Assembly: GCF_001485475.2 (NCBI RefSeq)
Contig: NZ_DF977003.1
Span: 496,001 to 560,000, forward strand
Reading direction: 5' to 3'
Length of the DNA stretch: 64,000 nt
From: Tepidanaerobacter syntrophicus
GTDB taxonomy: Bacteria > Bacillota > Thermosediminibacteria > Thermosediminibacterales > Tepidanaerobacteraceae
In this document: positions 44,539-52,760 of the stretch, piece by piece
How the letters are laid out: each line of letters starts with the position of its first letter
Numbering within the stretch: position 1 is the first letter of the stretch
Position numbers and translations under genes: made by a program
The notes under the pieces: model-generated
What the model was told of the DNA's origin: nothing
Databases searched by the model: none
The model's input: the letters and a program-made list of their open reading frames with translations, nothing else

Positions 44539-45537
44539 TTATTTGTCAATTTTTATCCCGTCTTGAAGAATGTTTAAAAGGAGTTTTGCGCCATTTTCCA
44601 TATCTGAAATATCTACCATCTCACTGTCAGAATGAATATATCTGCATGGTATCGAAAGACATCCTGTAGGAACACCGCTTTTGCTCAATGCTATTGCTCC
44701 GGAATCTGTTCCTCCGGCTTTAAGAACTTCCATTTGATAAGGTATATTATATTTTTCGGCTTTTTCTTTCATTAAATTCTTGATTGCCGGGTGTACCATT
44801 ACTGACTGATCAAATACTTTAACAGCCGGGCCGGCGCCAAGTTTTACGGCCATTGGCAAAGATTTTGGGGTATCTCCTGTATCCGTTACATCAACTGCTA
44901 TAGCTGCATATGGTTCAATGGCATATGCAGCAGTAGTTGCGCCTCGAAGGCCTAATTCTTCTTGAACAGTAAAAACAAAATATACTTCATGAGGACAGGT
45001 CTGAATGTTTTTTAAGGTTTCAATAAGCAGCGCACACGATGCTCTGTTATCCATGGCGCAAGAAGTACATCGTGTACCATTTTCAGCAAAAGGTGTGTAA
45101 TAAACCGCTGCATCTCCAATATTTACTCTTGAAAGAGCATCATCTTTGTCCTTTGCTCCTATATCTATATAAAGATTGTTTAAAGTTATGTCTTTTATTT
45201 CTTTAATTTCGCTTTCGTAGCTTACGACACCTACTGTACCGTTTTTAAAAATCACTTTCCTGTTAATAAGATCTGTTACGCTAAAACCACCTGCCGGAGC
45301 AAATCTTAAAAAGCCATTTTCGTCAACAAATGTAACCACAAGACCAATTTGATCCATATGGGCAGCCAGCATTATTTTGGAACCTGTTCCTTTTTTTACA
45401 GCTATTAAATTTCCCATAACATCAGTTCTGATTTCATCTGCAAAACCTTCTATTTCATTTATTATACTTTCTCTTATAAGTTCTTCATTGCCTGACGGGC
45501 CGAATACAGATACAAGTTTTTTTAAAAGCTCCTTCAT
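44539..45537 (-). CDS. M42 family metallo-aminopeptidase (paralogue 1)
   Basis: Two-metal aminopeptidase of the TET type, which makes large hollow complexes. The 332-residue protein contains all metal/catalytic positions: AHMDQIG (His), the bridging Asp in SCAMDNRASC, QEELGLRG (catalytic and ligand Glu), VDVTDTGD (Asp), and CRYIHSDSEM (His). Length is typical. It abuts paralogue 2 and is the last of the three. Substrate specificity is unclear. Confidence 0.9.
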   Translation of the reverse strand: MKELLKKLVSVFGPSGNEELIRESIINEIEGFADEIRTDVMGNLIAVKKGTGSKIMLAAHMDQIGLVVTFVDENGFLRFAPAGGFSVTDLINRKVIFKNGTVGVVSYESEIKEIKDITLNNLYIDIGAKDKDDALSRVNIGDAAVYYTPFAENGTRCTSCAMDNRASCALLIETLKNIQTCPHEVYFVFTVQEELGLRGATTAAYAIEPYAAIAVDVTDTGDTPKSLPMAVKLGAGPAVKVFDQSVMVHPAIKNLMKEKAEKYNIPYQMEVLKAGGTDSGAIALSKSGVPTGCLSIPCRYIHSDSEMVDISDMENGAKLLLNILQDGIKIDK

Positions 45538-46551
45538 TTAAAGCACACCCTTTCTTAAAAATTCTTTAATTAACTTTATGGTATTTTCATAATCCTTTAT
45601 GTCCATCATAGATACCGGAGAATGTATATATCTTACAGGAACCGACACTACGCCCGTTCGAACACCTTCATGTGCAAGTTGAATTATGCCTGCATCATTG
45701 CCGCCTGTCATGGTTCTTTTTATTTGATAAGGAATATTGCAAGATTCAGCTGTGTCTATTAAGGCAGAGACTATCTCTTTTGAAGAATATGAGCTTCTGT
45801 CGATTATCGAAATAGCCGGCCCAATTCCCATAACTGTGGAATACATATGTTCATCTGCTCCAGGCACGTCAGAGCATGTAGTCCCTTCTATCGCTATACC
45901 TATATCGGGATTTATTTTATAAGATGCTGTCATCGCACCTCGAAGGCCTACTTCTTCTTGAACCGCAAAACATGCGTAAATATCGTCAGGATAACTTTCT
46001 TTTAGTGTTTCTATAAGAACACCGCAGCCGGCTCTGTCGTCTAATGCTTTAGCCTTTATCTTACCATTTCCTATCTCCTCAAATTCTGTGGTAAACGCTG
46101 CATAATCCCCTAATTTTACAAGCTTTTCAGCTTCTTCTTTTGACGAGGCTCCGATGTCTATATACATATTTTCCTGCTTTATTACATTTTCTCTTTCGCT
46201 TTTTTCTTGCAAATGTATAGCCTTTACGCCGATTACTCCAAACACCTTTCCGCCTATAAGCACTCTTTTTGAAAGTAGAACTCGTTGGTCTATTCCTATA
46301 GTGCCAAACTTCAACATACCATTATCGCAGATATATGTAATAATAAGGCCTACCTCATCCATATGGGCATCAAGCATTATCTTCTTTGGATGCTCTTTTG
46401 TTCCTTTTTTAAAAGCTATCAGATTACCCATGCTGTCTATATGAATGTTATCAACGTATGGGGTGATTTCTTCCTTTATAAGTTCCCTGATTTTGTTTTC
46501 GTTTCCCGAAACACCATCTGTTTCAGTGAGACGCTTTAATAGCTCAACCAT
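45538..46551 (-). CDS. M42 family metallo-aminopeptidase (paralogue 2)
   Basis: Middle of three tandem M42 peptidases. The 337-residue protein has AHMDEVGLI, KALDDRAGCG, QEEVGLRGAM and VRYIHSPVSM. At the fifth ligand position it reads AIEGTTCSDVP, with Glu in place of the Asp of its neighbours, a variant common in the FrvX/YsdC branch. It overlaps the end of paralogue 3 by 16 bases and abuts paralogue 1. Aminopeptidase activity is expected but substrates are not. Confidence 0.9.
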   Translation of the reverse strand: MVELLKRLTETDGVSGNENKIRELIKEEITPYVDNIHIDSMGNLIAFKKGTKEHPKKIMLDAHMDEVGLIITYICDNGMLKFGTIGIDQRVLLSKRVLIGGKVFGVIGVKAIHLQEKSERENVIKQENMYIDIGASSKEEAEKLVKLGDYAAFTTEFEEIGNGKIKAKALDDRAGCGVLIETLKESYPDDIYACFAVQEEVGLRGAMTASYKINPDIGIAIEGTTCSDVPGADEHMYSTVMGIGPAISIIDRSSYSSKEIVSALIDTAESCNIPYQIKRTMTGGNDAGIIQLAHEGVRTGVVSVPVRYIHSPVSMMDIKDYENTIKLIKEFLRKGVL

Positions 46552-47576
46552 TCTTTCTCCTCCTTTAGCGAAGCTATGAAAAGAGCTATGAGCCTTGCTG
46601 CCTTCTTTACATCATCTATATTTAAGGTTTCAACGGTTGTATGCATATATCTAAGCGGAATGGAAACAAGCACACAAGGCACGCCATCTTTAGATACCTG
46701 CATCACCCATGCATCAGTGCCGCTGCGCCCGGGTATGACATCGCTTTGATAGTCTATGCCATACTCTTTTGCTGTATCTATGAGTTTTTGTGTAAGTATA
46801 GGATGCATATTAGGGCCTATTCCTATAGCCGGTCCTTTGCCTATCACACAAGTTCTTTCTTTCGGCGCATCCGGAGTTTCTCCATGAGTTACATCTATTG
46901 CTATGCCAACATCCGGCGAAATTTTAAAAGTGCTTATTTTTGCTCCATGGCTTCCCAGCTCTTCCTGACTAGTTGCTACAAAATAAACCTCTCCGGTATA
47001 ATTTAACTTGTCAAGCTCTTTCATAGCCTCAATCATAACAGCTACGCCGGCTCTGTCGTCTAAAGATTTGCCGCTTATCATCTTATCATTCATTTTTATA
47101 AGGGGGCTTTTAAAAGTTATTGGATCTCCTATGCTAATAAGTTGAATTAACTCATCTTTACTCATGCCGGTATCAATTGCCATATCTTTAATATCTATAG
47201 CCTTGTCTGATTCTCCCGGTTTTTGCAGATGCGGTGGTTTTGCCCCTATTATACCTAAAACCTCTTTACTGCCGTGTATTCTAACTTCCTGGCCGGGCAG
47301 TATTCTTTGATCTATTCCTATGCCGGTAAATTTTACAAAACCCTTATCGTCTATATCTGTTACCATCATCCCAACTTCGTCTAAGTGAGCCGCTAACATA
47401 ACCTTCGGGCCACCAATTTTCTTGGATTTTTTGCCTATAACATTGTAAAAAGTATCTACCTCAACATCATCGCAAAGCTCTTTAAATATGTCGGCAGTTA
47501 TGCTTGCAACATTTTTTTCATAACCTGATATTCCTGCAAGATTATTTACTTTAGATAAAAACTCCAGCGTATCCAT
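46536..47576 (-). CDS. M42 family metallo-aminopeptidase (paralogue 3)
   Basis: First gene of the M42 triplet. Start ATG 47576 has AAAGGAG 8 bases upstream (346 residues); a GTG at 47585 lies in that site. Metal/catalytic residues are in AHLDEVGMMV, KSLDDRAGVAV, QEELGSHGA, AIDVTHGETPD and LRYMHTTVET. The QEELGSHGA loop differs from the LRG of its neighbours, suggesting an M42 subgroup of its own. An extended -10 promoter lies upstream. Confidence 0.9.
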   Translation of the reverse strand: MDTLEFLSKVNNLAGISGYEKNVASITADIFKELCDDVEVDTFYNVIGKKSKKIGGPKVMLAAHLDEVGMMVTDIDDKGFVKFTGIGIDQRILPGQEVRIHGSKEVLGIIGAKPPHLQKPGESDKAIDIKDMAIDTGMSKDELIQLISIGDPITFKSPLIKMNDKMISGKSLDDRAGVAVMIEAMKELDKLNYTGEVYFVATSQEELGSHGAKISTFKISPDVGIAIDVTHGETPDAPKERTCVIGKGPAIGIGPNMHPILTQKLIDTAKEYGIDYQSDVIPGRSGTDAWVMQVSKDGVPCVLVSIPLRYMHTTVETLNIDDVKKAARLIALFIASLKEEKEWLSY

Positions 47577-47607
47577 CCGATACACTCCTTTCCTAGGTGC
47601 TTTCTCT

Positions 47608-47616
47608 ATTATATCA
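47608..47616 (-). promoter_or_regulatory. Extended -10 promoter for the M42 genes
   Basis: The minus strand has TGATATAAT, a full TGnTATAAT extended -10 element, about 30 bases upstream of the ATG at 47576. No good -35 is visible, as is common for extended -10 promoters. Confidence 0.55.
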
Positions 47617-47636
47617 TAATAAGAATATCAAAAATG

Positions 47637-47673
47637 AAAAAATTCAGCAGGAATAACTTCCCGCTGAATTTTA
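47637..47673 (-). terminator. Intrinsic terminator after ABC exporter genes
   Basis: Arms AAAATTCAGC and GCTGAATTTT enclose a loop with inner GGGAA/TTCC pairing. A TTTTTTCATTTTTG run follows on the minus strand. The stop of the ABC gene lies at the stem base. It separates the exporter operon from the M42 operon. Confidence 0.88.
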
Positions 47674-49575
47674 CATAACATTTGCTTGTTCATCTTCTAC
47701 AAAGGCTCCAAGGAATTGACTCTTATACAGATCGGCATAAAAACCGCCCTTTGCCATCAGCTCTTCGTGGGTGCCTTGTTCTATTATCCGGCCGTGGTTC
47801 ATAACTAAAATATTATCTGCATTTCTTATGGTGGATAGACGATGAGCGATAACAAAGCTTGTCCTGTTTGCCATAAGTTCCTTCATGGCTTTTTGAATAG
47901 ACATTTCTGTTAGAGTATCTACATTGCTGGTTGCCTCATCGAGTATTAATATATCAGGATCTGCAAGAATAGCTCGCGCAATAGTAATAAGCTGTTTTTC
48001 ACCCTGGGAAATATTCGAAGCATCCTCATTGAGCACTGTATTATACCCTTCAGGAAGCGCTTTTATAAAGTGGTGAGCATGAGCCGCTTTGGCAGCTCTT
48101 ATTATTTCTTCATCTGTAGCTCCTTCTTTTCCATAAGCTATGTTATCTTTAACTGTGCCGCTAAAAAGCCAGGTGTCCTGAAGAACCATGCCAAAAATTT
48201 TCCTAAGGTTGCTTCTCTTAAGATCTCTGATATCTACATGATCTACCATTATCTTGCCCGAATCTATTTCGTAAAATCTCATAAGAAGATTTACAAGGGT
48301 TGTTTTTCCCGCACCTGTAGGTCCGACTATAGCAACCATTTGTCCCGGGTCTACATCTATTGTTAAATCTTCGATTAAAGGCTCATCTTTCTTATAGCTA
48401 AAATACACGTGATCTAAATCCACATACCCCTCAGCATTTTCAATAACTGTCGCATCTTCTTTGTCTGGTATCTCTTCTTCTTGATCTAGTATCTCGAATA
48501 CCCTTTCCGCTGAAGCAATTGTAGACTGAATGATATTAGCTATATTTGCGGTTTGAGTTATAGGCTGCGTAAACTGCCGTGAATACTGAATGAATGCCTG
48601 CACATTGCCTATTGTGATACGTCCGCCGGCTACCATTATACCTCCGGTAACGCATACAAAGACATAACCCAGGTTACTGATAAAGTTCATAATAGGCATT
48701 ATTATACCTGAAACAAACTGTGCCCGCCAGGATGCTCCATAAAGTTCTTCATTTATGGATTTAAATTCTTCAATAGCGTCTTCTTCATGACCGAAAGCTT
48801 TTACTACATTATGGCCGCCATACATTTCTTCCACATGACCGTTTAAATTGCCTAATACTCTTTGCTGCATAGCAAAATATTTTTGTGAGCGAGATGCAAT
48901 AGATCTTATTGCTAATAAACTCAGCGGTAATGTTATTACAGTAACCAAAGTCAGTATAGGACTTATGGTCAGCATCATTACGATTACGCCGATAAGAGTG
49001 ACAACTGCGGTAATCAGTTGAGTGATACTTTGCTGCAGCGTGGAGCTTATATTATCGACATCATTTGTGACTCGACTCAAAACTTCTCCATATGGGTTTG
49101 CATCAAAGAATTTAAGGGGTAATTTGGTCAATTTATCCATTATATCTGCCCTCATCGTTCTTACTACGCCTTGGGCTACTCCGGCCATCATATAATGCTG
49201 AATATAGTTAAATGCAGAACTCGTTATATACAGGCCGAGTAATATAAACAATATATGGGTTATATAAGCAAAATCTATGTGGGCCCCGGGCTCATGGCGC
49301 AGTATGGCCATAGAACCCTCGAAAAGCTTTGTTGTTGCCATTCCCATAATTTTAGGTCCTAAAATATTAAACACAGTGCTAAGAGCAGCCATACAGAATA
49401 CAACTAAAATTATTGGGATATACGGCTTTATATAATTTAAAAGCCTCATCAAGCTGCCTTTAAAATCCTTGGGCTTTTCCATAGCTCTTGCCATAGGCGG
49501 TCCACCGCCGTGACCTCCTTTACGTCTTCCGCCGCCAAGTCTATGCCTATCTATTCTTTCGTTTTCGCTGCTCAT
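47671..49575 (-). CDS. ABC exporter subunit with consensus ATP site (BmrD/LmrD-like)
   Basis: Half-transporter of the multidrug/lipid exporter type. The 634-residue protein has a basic Gly/Arg/His N-terminus, six predicted membrane helices (about 50-330), and an ATP-binding domain. Walker A is GPTGAGKTTLVNLL, Walker B ILILDEATSNVD has the catalytic Glu, and the switch His is in IAHRLST. Its signature motif is degenerate (NISQGEKQ). It overlaps its partner by four bases, so the two should form a heterodimer. Substrate is unknown. Confidence 0.92.
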   Translation of the reverse strand: MSSENERIDRHRLGGGRRKGGHGGGPPMARAMEKPKDFKGSLMRLLNYIKPYIPIILVVFCMAALSTVFNILGPKIMGMATTKLFEGSMAILRHEPGAHIDFAYITHILFILLGLYITSSAFNYIQHYMMAGVAQGVVRTMRADIMDKLTKLPLKFFDANPYGEVLSRVTNDVDNISSTLQQSITQLITAVVTLIGVIVMMLTISPILTLVTVITLPLSLLAIRSIASRSQKYFAMQQRVLGNLNGHVEEMYGGHNVVKAFGHEEDAIEEFKSINEELYGASWRAQFVSGIIMPIMNFISNLGYVFVCVTGGIMVAGGRITIGNVQAFIQYSRQFTQPITQTANIANIIQSTIASAERVFEILDQEEEIPDKEDATVIENAEGYVDLDHVYFSYKKDEPLIEDLTIDVDPGQMVAIVGPTGAGKTTLVNLLMRFYEIDSGKIMVDHVDIRDLKRSNLRKIFGMVLQDTWLFSGTVKDNIAYGKEGATDEEIIRAAKAAHAHHFIKALPEGYNTVLNEDASNISQGEKQLITIARAILADPDILILDEATSNVDTLTEMSIQKAMKELMANRTSFVIAHRLSTIRNADNILVMNHGRIIEQGTHEELMAKGGFYADLYKSQFLGAFVEDEQANVM

Positions 49576-51299
49576 GCTATCTCCTCCTCCGAAAGCTGGG
49601 AAAGCACAATATTTCTATATGTTTCACAGTTTTCATAGAGTTCTTTGTGTTTTCCTATACCTGCTATTCGCCCTTCATCTAATACAATTATTTGATCTGC
49701 ATTCATAACTGTTGCGACACGTTGAGCTACAATTATTACAGTAGAATTTTTAGTCTCTTTGTTTAATGCCATTCTAAGCTTAGCATCTGTTTTAAAATCC
49801 AATGCAGAAAAACTATCATCAAACAAGTATATTTTAGGTTTTTTTACAATAGCCCTTGCAATACAAATTCTCTGTTTTTGACCGCCGGAAACGTTAAGAC
49901 CGCCCTCTGCAAGTATTGTATCAAAGCCGTCTTTCATTTCATTTATAAATTCTGCTGCTTGAGCAATTTCTGCCGCATGCCGAACTTCCTCATCTGTAGC
50001 ATCTTTTTTGCCATACCTTATATTTTCGGCAATAGTGCCTGTAAATAAAACAGACTTTTGGGGAACATAACCTATCCATGAACGAAGAACTTTCTGCGGA
50101 ATGTTCCTTATGTCAATTCCATCTATAGTTATTTTGCCGGAGGTTACATCATAAAACCTCATTATAAGGTTGGAGATAGTAGACTTGCCTGAACCTGTAG
50201 CACCGATTATTGCAGTAGTGTGGCCCGGCAGTGCTTTAAATGATATATTAGATAATGCCGGCTCTTCAGCATCGGGATATTTGAATGTGACATCATCAAA
50301 CTCTAATATCCCTTTTATTTCTTTTGGAATAACAGGATTTTCAGGATCTACTATTTCAGGCTCCATATTTAATACTTCTTTGATTCTTTCTACAGATGCG
50401 GCTGCACGAGGTATCATTATGAACATCATGGAAAGCATCATTGTAGAAAACATTATTTCCATGGCGTACTGGATAAATGCAAGAAGATCCCCTACTTCCA
50501 TCATTGCTGCATTTATCTTGAGGCTTGCATACCACACAATGGCAACAGTTGTAACATTGAATATCAAGATAACAAGAGGCATCATTATAGCCATTAACCT
50601 ATTTACTCTTATTGCTACATTCGTAAGATCAATATTTGCGGCATTAAAGCGTTTTTTCTCGTGTTCTACTCTGTTAAAGGCTCGAATAACTCTAACGCCT
50701 GTGAGATTTTCTCTCATCACTCTGTTTACAGTATCAATTTTTGCTTGCATGGCTCTAAAAAGCGGTAATGAAAACTTAGATAAGACAACTATTACTCCTG
50801 CTATTATAGGCACAACTATCCAAAAAACAAAAGAGAGACTTGGCGCAGTAGATACAGCCATTATTATAGCGCCTATAGCCATTATGGGAGACATAACTAC
50901 CATTCTAAAAAATATCATTGCAACCATTTGCAGCTGAGTTACATCGTTTGTAGTTCTTGTTATAAGAGAAGCGGTTCCTATTTTATTAAATTCATTAAGA
51001 GAAAAACTCTCCACTTTCTTGAAAATACTTTCTCTAAGTGATTTGCCAAAACCCATCGCCGCCCTTGAAGAACAGTAGCTTGCCGCTATTGCAGCACATA
51101 CAGCGCCAAGAGCCACTAGTAGCATTTTCCCTCCTACAGAAAGAATGTAACCGGTATTACCATTTACTATGCCAGTATTTACGATATCTGCAAGCATCGA
51201 CGGCAGTATCAGCTGCGACATGGCCTGGCAGAATATAAAGATCAATGATGCTAAAATAAATATCCAATATGGTTTTAAATTGCTTAAGATTTTTTTCAT
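49572..51299 (-). CDS. ABC exporter subunit with degenerate ATP site (BmrC/LmrC-like)
   Basis: Partner half-transporter. The start is ATG 51299, 8 bases after GAGGTG (575 residues); upstream codons overlap marR. Six membrane helices precede an ATP domain with Walker A GATGSGKSTISNLI and consensus signature NVSGGQKQRICIARAI. Walker B reads IYLFDDSFSALD, with Asp replacing the catalytic Glu, and the switch His is Gln (VAQRVATV). So one composite ATP site is expected to be weak or inactive, as in BmrCD and TM287/288. Confidence 0.92.
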   Translation of the reverse strand: MKKILSNLKPYWIFILASLIFIFCQAMSQLILPSMLADIVNTGIVNGNTGYILSVGGKMLLVALGAVCAAIAASYCSSRAAMGFGKSLRESIFKKVESFSLNEFNKIGTASLITRTTNDVTQLQMVAMIFFRMVVMSPIMAIGAIIMAVSTAPSLSFVFWIVVPIIAGVIVVLSKFSLPLFRAMQAKIDTVNRVMRENLTGVRVIRAFNRVEHEKKRFNAANIDLTNVAIRVNRLMAIMMPLVILIFNVTTVAIVWYASLKINAAMMEVGDLLAFIQYAMEIMFSTMMLSMMFIMIPRAAASVERIKEVLNMEPEIVDPENPVIPKEIKGILEFDDVTFKYPDAEEPALSNISFKALPGHTTAIIGATGSGKSTISNLIMRFYDVTSGKITIDGIDIRNIPQKVLRSWIGYVPQKSVLFTGTIAENIRYGKKDATDEEVRHAAEIAQAAEFINEMKDGFDTILAEGGLNVSGGQKQRICIARAIVKKPKIYLFDDSFSALDFKTDAKLRMALNKETKNSTVIIVAQRVATVMNADQIIVLDEGRIAGIGKHKELYENCETYRNIVLSQLSEEEIA

Positions 51300-51306
51300 A
51301 AAACTA

Positions 51307-51756
51307 TCACCTCGCATTAGCCTCAATAGGTTCTTTAAGGTTATCTCTTATTTTTTTAAAAAGTCTGTTAAGAATACTCTTTTCTTCCTCAGATAGGCCG
51401 CTGAACATTTTTTCTTCTATAGATTGTATTTCTGCATAAATGCTTTTGCAAAGTTTTCGGCCGTATTCGGTAATATATACCCGCACAATCCGCTGGTCAG
51501 CTTCATCCTGGACCCTTTTTACCAATCCTGCCTTTTCCATTCGCTTTAGCATAATGGTAACAGTAGGAGCTTTCATTTTTAAGCTACGCGCCAATTCTGC
51601 TTGACTTTGACCATCGTTTTTATAAAGTGCAAACAAAAGAGGCGGCTGTCCGGGATAAACTCCTCTTTTTTGAAACGATCTATGCGTCTTCAGATAATGC
51701 AGTCTTGCAATCTCCAAGAAGAGAGCATAGTTTGATTCAGGATCTAAACAATTCAT
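51307..51756 (-). CDS. MarR family transcriptional regulator
   Basis: Winged-helix regulator, probably repressing the following exporter genes and itself. The ATG at 51756 follows a GGAGAGTG site; a TTG at 51774 is possible but sits against it. The 149-residue product has the MarR fold: QPPLLFALYKNDGQSQAELA, RSLKMKAPTVTIMLKRMEKA, GLVKRVQDEADQRIVRVYIT. Strong promoter and a 12-bp palindrome lie upstream. Its effector cannot be inferred. Confidence 0.93.
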   Translation of the reverse strand: MNCLDPESNYALFLEIARLHYLKTHRSFQKRGVYPGQPPLLFALYKNDGQSQAELARSLKMKAPTVTIMLKRMEKAGLVKRVQDEADQRIVRVYITEYGRKLCKSIYAEIQSIEEKMFSGLSEEEKSILNRLFKKIRDNLKEPIEANAR

Positions 51757-51778
51757 TTGAATTTCACTCTCCAATTAC

Positions 51779-51790
51779 TTAGACGTCTAA
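51779..51790. promoter_or_regulatory. 12-bp palindromic operator candidate for MarR
   Basis: Perfect palindrome TTAGACGTCTAA located 9 bases downstream of the -10, covering the likely transcript start region of marR. MarR-type proteins bind short palindromes at such places. It is a single copy in the gap. Confidence 0.6.
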
Positions 51791-51799
51791 CGAATTTGT

Positions 51800-51828
51800 A
51801 TTCTATCACTTGAAATTAAAAAAGTCAA
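51800..51828 (-). promoter_or_regulatory. Sigma-A promoter for marR-ABC operon
   Basis: TTGACT (51828-51823), a 17-base spacer, then TAGAAT (51805-51800). Each hexamer matches five of six. Confidence 0.8.
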
Positions 51829-51916
51829 TACTAAATATTTTACACTATCATTTTAGTTTCATAAAGGGCATTACCTTTCTATTCATCTATGAAAGATGGC
51901 GAAGGCCTTTTCAACA

Positions 51917-51945
51917 TTGACAAAAAGAATTGAAAAGTTTATAGT
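51917..51945 (+). promoter_or_regulatory. Strong sigma-A promoter for the plus-strand orphan gene
   Basis: TTGACA (51917-51922), a 17-base spacer, then TATAGT (51940-51945): a perfect -35, optimal spacing and a 5/6 -10. The distance to the start codon at 51998 is about 52 bases. Confidence 0.8.
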
Positions 51946-51997
51946 ACATCTATGATATATAAATAATTAAAATATAATGAAAAAAGGAGGAAAACTC

Positions 51998-52660
51998 ATG
52001 AATAAAGAATCTAAGTCACCTATAGAAGAAGTTATTGAATTTGCAAAAAGTAAGATAGGCGAGGGCAGTAAGGATGTGAAAGAAACGCTAGAGGATGAAA
52101 AGAAGAGGATTGAGGAAATAATTGACTTTGCTAAATCTAAACTAAACGAAGCTAGTGATGATGTAAAAAGCGAGCTAAACGACATAATAAAGTATGCAGA
52201 GTCTAAACTTGGAGAACTGGAAGAAAAAGCCACGGATAAGGCTAAAGAGGCAACAGACAAGGTAAAAAAGGAAACAGAAGAAAGCAGCATAAGCGATACA
52301 ATAACATCTGCAGCTAAATCAGTGGGAACAACAATTTCGAATTTCGCCAAGAAATTCGGCAAAGAGACCAGTAAAATTTCTGAAATCATAAGCATAAGAT
52401 CAGAGCTGAGCTCTCTAAACAATGCAAAAAAAGAAAAAATCGCAAAGCTGGGAGAGGCTTTACTTAATGATTATAAGAGCAATCCATTAGAAAATATAAA
52501 ATTGTCTGATGAGATGAAAAAAATTATAGGCGAAATATCAGAGATAGAAAGTAAAATAGAAAGCAAGAACGCCGAACTAGAAAAGATACAGAAAAAGGAA
52601 AATCTGACTTCTGACCAAATTAAAGAAATAGAAGAAATAGAGAATGAGAAAAATAAATAG
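51998..52660 (+). CDS. Orphan highly charged helical repeat protein of unknown function
   Basis: The only plus-strand gene here; I do not recognise it. The ATG at 51998 has AAAGGAGG 7 bases upstream, giving 220 residues. It is rich in Lys, Glu, Ser and Ile, with no Cys, His or Trp, no signal peptide and no membrane helix. Three related segments start at 12 (VIEFAKSKIGEGSKDVK), 41 (IIDFAKSKLNEASDDVK) and 63 (IIKYAESKLGELEEK). A less charged helix (102-127) and a C-terminal coiled coil (175-217) follow. It resembles LEA-like or phasin-like stress proteins in composition only. It diverges from marR and has its own strong promoter. Confidence 0.85.
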   Translation: MNKESKSPIEEVIEFAKSKIGEGSKDVKETLEDEKKRIEEIIDFAKSKLNEASDDVKSELNDIIKYAESKLGELEEKATDKAKEATDKVKKETEESSISDTITSAAKSVGTTISNFAKKFGKETSKISEIISIRSELSSLNNAKKEKIAKLGEALLNDYKSNPLENIKLSDEMKKIIGEISEIESKIESKNAELEKIQKKENLTSDQIKEIEEIENEKNK

Positions 52661-52691
52661 CCCTTTGATTTTCCCTTGATTTTAATTTTAG

Positions 52692-52714
52692 AGCCACCGG
52701 CTATGCCGGTGGCT
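52692..52714 (+). terminator. Terminator hairpin after the orphan gene
   Basis: Perfect 10-bp GC-rich stem (AGCCACCGGC and complement) with a three-base loop, 31 bases after the orphan stop, followed by TTATTTATGC. The T-run is interrupted, but the stem is strong. It lies between two convergent genes and may act in both directions. Confidence 0.7.
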
Positions 52715-52730
52715 TATTTATGCAAGTTTA

Positions 52731-52760
52731 AGAAGCTATACTTAATTGAGTATAGCTTCT
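52731..52760 (-). terminator. Hairpin spanning the ftsY stop codon
   Basis: Perfect 12-bp inverted repeat (AGAAGCTATACT and complement) with a six-base loop; it includes the last ftsY codons and stop. On the minus strand only a short TT follows, so termination may depend on it together with the next hairpin at 52714-52692. Confidence 0.55.

Follow-up and report, generated by a model that had tools for sequence, protein, structure and literature searches.

The 220-residue protein encoded on the plus strand of the window, by which is meant the whole 64,000-nucleotide stretch of Tepidanaerobacter syntrophicus DNA that was analysed, looks unique, yet on the evidence of sequence comparison it is not an orphan. 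Profile matches place it, as a divergent member without the zinc ribbon, in a family of small helical proteins that is widespread in the Bacillota but uncurated. It carries an extra amphipathic helix of about 85 residues with 11-residue periodicity, built from degenerate copies of a motif found once in its closest relative. The coding sequence and the part of it that is common to the family are as follows.

51998..52660, plus strand: coding sequence of the 220-residue all-helical protein (P0001), with no Cys, His or Trp and a net charge of -9
52286..52597, plus strand: conserved family core (residues 97-200), made up of a basic amphipathic helix and, after it, a coiled-coil hairpin, from profile matches and the predicted structure

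Homologues and family membership

Full-length searches of Pfam, NCBIfam, PHROGs, PDB sequences, phages, plasmids, viral contigs and, in a first scan, genome contigs returned only sub-threshold or chance coiled-coil matches, probably owing to the weight that the charged N-terminal repeats carry in the score. Two weak full-length matches in genomes, to a helix-rich small protein beside a coaD-like gene and to the coiled-coil stretch of a transposase-like protein, were rejected. When residues ~97-200 are used as the query, a 164-residue hypothetical protein is found with 44% identity over the core (E 3.6e-21) in the MAG of Thermoanaerobacteraceae bacterium isolate Yes75-04 (G069; contig JASEJQ010000019.1; L088 7968-8462). 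It has the same order of parts, no zinc ribbon and an IINFAKSKL motif; it differs in having a single copy of the motif, at the N-terminus, and a shorter N-terminal helix. Its gene sits between cstA and an M20 peptidase gene. Weaker matches to the core query are small proteins sharing the core, most of them with a C-terminal zinc ribbon.

A family profile made from seven sequences was used to search 398 Bacillota genomes sampled across the phylum, one per species, and found members in 98 of them. Members usually begin with an amphipathic helix, continue with a coiled-coil hairpin and end in a zinc ribbon (for example L058 1501-1926 and L070 1495-1965). At least two CxxC follow the core in 17 of the 25 members inspected and several members have none, therefore the zinc ribbon is common in the family, yet not universal, and is not a defining feature. 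Two short ribbon-less members lie about 6 kb apart in some Bacillota genomes (G085, G209 and G344; for example L093 5913-6197 and 12259-12531).

Since the first profile included the window protein, an independent one was built from 16 members, with neither the window protein nor its close relative among them and with none of those that the query had itself retrieved. This profile gives the window protein 32.4 bits and the 164-residue relative 47.2 bits; none of 4000 shuffles, half of them random and half heptad-preserving, exceeds 5.0 bits. With a 25-member profile the scores are 36.1 and 47.6 bits; the best shuffle reaches 15.6 bits, and the window's SMC protein, itself a long coiled coil, -23.7. 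The match to the family is therefore not generic coiled-coil similarity. It extends across the whole core of ~94 residues, in which one glycine of the hairpin (G152 of the window protein) is invariant in an alignment of 24 rows. An N-terminal amphipathic helix with a periodicity of about 98 degrees precedes the hairpin in the window protein (residues 98-125), as it does in the family; in 20 members the moment is greatest at 98-100 degrees for the first 27 residues and, for the last helix, at 102-103 degrees, the heptad angle. The window protein has no cysteine at all and so lacks the C-terminal ribbon, with its two CxxC, of most members. It also differs in having no VY behind the conserved (I/L)G motif and, unlike the others, has an N-terminal extension of ~95 residues. 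A charged tail occupies the position of the zinc ribbon of its relatives.

The helical core of the family members is covered by no model in Pfam or NCBIfam, where only the ribbons are named (PF13240, PF12773 and PF13248 in Pfam). A PDB search with the family profile matched mainly zinc ribbons and coiled coils, and no literature on the helical-core family was found. The sequence-only reading of this DNA had proposed a homologue search, which has now yielded the 164-residue relative and the wider family, and had held that a clear match to a known family would speak against it; no curated family matches, but a broad uncurated one does. Other genomes of the same order have no family member at E <= 0.001, two of them having partial, borderline matches, and the genome that carries the 220-residue gene has no second member. 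This last result bears on the idea that the protein is an oligomerisation partner or antagonist of zinc-ribbon relatives, its hairpin binding their coiled coils while, for want of a ribbon, the contact made by the ribbon would not be relayed. Although the core is common to mostly ribbon-bearing proteins, there is no partner from the family within the same cell, and such a role is improbable.

The gene and its surroundings

The interval 51917-52714, to which the sequence-only reading had drawn attention, runs from a -35 box to just beyond a 3' hairpin. The expression signals within it are these.

51917..51945, plus strand: sigma-A-type promoter-like site, TTGACA-17 nt-TATAGT, 11/12 matches, from a sequence scan
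51984..51991, plus strand: ribosome-binding site AAAGGAGG, ~7 nt upstream of the ATG, read from the sequence
52693..52713, plus strand: strong 3' hairpin, terminator-like, with a weak U-tract, from folding and a genome search

Each of the other plus-strand open reading frames of at least 100 residues in the window is antisense to a longer one on the minus strand, therefore this coding sequence is the sole plus-strand gene, as had been claimed. The near-consensus promoter that had been noted is likewise present. Eight promoter-like sites with 11/12 matches occur in the window (4 per strand), where about 2 would be expected (1.05 per strand), so such a site is unusual without being unique. AAAGGAGG is, to judge from its sequence, a good ribosome-binding site. 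The terminator that had been described stands in part. The hairpin GCCACCGGC-TAT-GCCGGTGGC is strong (-22.6 kcal/mol, z -4.5) and its sequence is unique within the genome; however, the tail that follows it, TTATTTATG, makes a poor U-tract, and a terminator scanner does not call a terminator here. Beside it, at 52731-52760 and overlapping the 3' end of ftsY, is another inverted repeat, AT-rich and perfect (GAAGCTATACT...AGTATAGCTTC). On the minus strand the hairpin and this repeat together fold at -44.5 kcal/mol (z -7.7). The GC and GC3 of the gene are inside the range of its neighbours, and its identity to the nearest relative by codon position (0.60/0.72/0.34) indicates constraint at the protein level.

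The gene forms one end, beyond a MarR block, of an insertion of about 8 kb.

44539..52660, unstranded: patchwork insertion between ylxM and ftsY, containing three M42 peptidases, two ABC exporters, MarR and the 220-residue gene, from locus comparison

In the 12 relatives with loci covering this junction, ylxM and ffh come immediately after ftsY, a count that leaves out one further relative whose contig ends at ftsY. The MarR-ABC-ABC block (47663-51844) has 88% DNA identity to a block at another site in both congeners, against 69-76% identity for the flanking core genes; this cassette appears either to be unusually conserved or to have been recently exchanged between species. The three tandem M42 peptidase genes (44539-47585) have a counterpart trio in G069 (L157 358-3392) at 76-79% identity, but for the one M42 gene checked the best M42 in the congeners is only ~51-53% identical. 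Lateral transfer of the trio is likely on these identities. The nearest relative of the 220-residue gene is also in G069. These affinities of the MarR block, the M42 trio and the 220-residue gene mark the insertion as a patchwork. Lateral exchange with the G069 lineage is a reasonable inference, though not necessarily in one piece, since the relatives of the insertion parts sit on different contigs in G069. Across 41 stretches around family loci there is no conserved neighbourhood and no constant neighbour gene, so that context gives no pointer to the function of the family.

Structure of the repeat helix and the hairpin

Cys, His and Trp are absent from the protein, as had been reported, and 42% of its residues are charged. 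Three degenerate copies of an IIxFAKSKL-type motif had also been reported, and the motif scan recovers them within the N-terminal extension.

52019..52273, plus strand: N-terminal extension, residues 8-92, a continuous 11/3-periodic amphipathic helix, class-A-like, containing all three motif copies, from moment and charge bins
52031..52057, plus strand: motif copy 1, VIEFAKSKI, residues 12-20, from the motif scan
52118..52144, plus strand: motif copy 2, IIDFAKSKL, residues 41-49, from the motif scan
52184..52210, plus strand: motif copy 3, IIKYAESKL, residues 63-71, from the motif scan

The copies start at residues 12, 41 and 63, at spacings of 29 and 22. Copies 1 and 2 score 58, and 300 heptad-preserving shuffles reach at most 45; for copy 3, 2 and 4 of 5000 period-preserving shuffles are equally good. 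Over residues 8-92 the hydrophobic moment peaks at 98 degrees (0.42) and is nearly nil (0.05) at the heptad angle of 102.9 degrees, with 0 of 5000 shuffles showing as good a periodicity. The helix can be written in 11-mers as IEEVIEFAKSK / IGEGSKDVKET / LEDEKKRIEEI / IDFAKSKLNEA / SDDVKSELNDI / IKYAESKLGEL / EEKATDKAKEA. Most of the large hydrophobic residues fall no further than 72 degrees from the face centre; the basic residues are most frequent at 72-108 degrees and the acidic ones at 108-180 degrees. A layout of this kind is the class-A arrangement of apolipoproteins. The mean hydrophobicity of the helix is low (-0.25, Eisenberg).

The predicted structure is helical throughout, in agreement with the helical, repeat-bearing protein of the sequence-only reading, with helices at 98-161 and 171-201. 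The coiled-coil hairpin (residues ~126-161 and 171-201) has pLDDT values mostly of 83-95 across 131-200, while confidence is low at residues 1-30 and 80-110; folding with a two-sequence alignment gave lower confidence than the single-sequence model. A fold search of the PDB with the predicted structure returned nothing at E <= 0.001, only generic long-helix matches with low TM. Residues 98-125 form a second amphipathic helix, which is basic, with a best angle of 97 degrees (97-98) and a moment of 0.535. Its lipid-binding score D (HeliQuest-like) is 1.82, a value reached somewhere in 11 of the 62 other window proteins and therefore not discriminating.

The same features bear on several functions other than surface binding. 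A LEA- or hydrophilin-like stress protectant would be largely unfolded when dilute and would form 11-mer helices on drying, heat or salt, shielding membranes and proteins. The high proportion of charged residues, the absence of Cys, His and Trp and the 11-residue periodicity over 85 residues would suit such a protein, as would the two stretches of low model confidence and the segment ATDKAKEATDKVKKETEE (residues 78-95), which may resemble the 11-mers of group-3 LEA proteins. However, neither Pfam nor NCBIfam reports a LEA family, even with E allowed up to 1-10, and LEA proteins lack the coiled-coil hairpin of the C-terminal half, which is conserved, predicted with confidence and shared with zinc-ribbon proteins. 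This reading is unlikely, though a credible second line of thought. A right-handed hendecad coiled coil, forming a rod or fibre with no lipid contact, would have the same 98-degree periodicity and could include the heptad-type C-terminal hairpin, but the class-A segregation of charge on the polar face and the short, Gly/Ser/Thr-rich nature of the basic helix at 98-125 make it quite unlikely.

LEA-type stress proteins and Phasin (PF05597) share with the window protein their charged amphipathic helices, and both coat or protect surfaces. The Phasin match is 13.8 bits, against a gathering cut-off of 28.8. A phasin-type coat of polyhydroxyalkanoate granules has this sub-threshold match in its favour, but PhaC_N, which is one pathway marker only, was found in none of G000, G001, G002 and G069 (the genome itself, its two congeners and the genome of the closest homologue), a control genome being positive. 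Since no PhaC synthase was found, coating of such granules is exceedingly improbable. YtxH is also below its cut-off in Pfam (18.1 against 37.5 bits, residues 1-95). A nucleoid-associated, DNA-bridging protein could be highly charged and helical with a hairpin coiled coil, as this one is; the net charge of -9, the missing zinc ribbon and the lack of any match to a DNA-binding family in Pfam, NCBIfam or PHROGs make this highly improbable.

Proposed surface binding and the family

Of the functions listed in the sequence-only reading, stress protection is thus possible, granule coating unlikely and DNA bridging disfavoured, while surface or membrane coating appears to be the best fit to the 11/3 amphipathic geometry. 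The 11/22-mer helices of apolipoproteins A1, A4 and E (PF01442) have the same 11/3 periodicity and class-A charge pattern, and motif copies 2 and 3 of the window protein are 22 residues apart. There is no sign of common descent with the apolipoproteins, the Pfam match to PF01442 being 18.5 bits, far below the gathering cut-off of 90.

The suggestion that the protein acts as a peripheral, surface-binding helical scaffold has about an even chance of being right. The 11/3 repeat helix and, with it, the basic amphipathic helix of residues ~98-125 would lie flat against a surface made of lipid or otherwise hydrophobic. This would most likely be the membrane of the cell, on its inner face, and the heptad-type hairpin would dimerise or oligomerise. 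On this view the protein would not be an enzyme but would serve as a scaffold or coat, much as apolipoproteins, perilipins and PspA do. Extra copies of the motif would make its hold on the surface firmer, whereas relatives may depend on contact through the zinc ribbon instead. Because right-handed coiled coils and LEA proteins can also show 11/3 periodicity, lipid binding is proposed here conditionally. The low hydrophobicity of the repeat helix, the nondistinctive D score, the sub-cut-off match to PF01442, the lack of a conserved neighbourhood and the drop in model confidence with a two-sequence alignment are points against the scaffold. A more doubtful extension of it is that an apolipoprotein- or perilipin-like lineage arose inside this unnamed zinc-ribbon scaffold family, in which the ribbon was dropped and the 11-mer motif multiplied to give a dedicated membrane coat in a lineage of thermophilic anaerobes.

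The gene is a case of a conserved domain masked in an apparent orphan, where charged repeats dominate the searches. The helical core is without a Pfam or NCBIfam model, although a member is present in about a quarter of the Bacillota genomes sampled. A variant that has no ribbon but a readable, putatively surface-binding repeat may provide a concrete first hypothesis, that of an amphipathic-helix scaffold, for the whole family.
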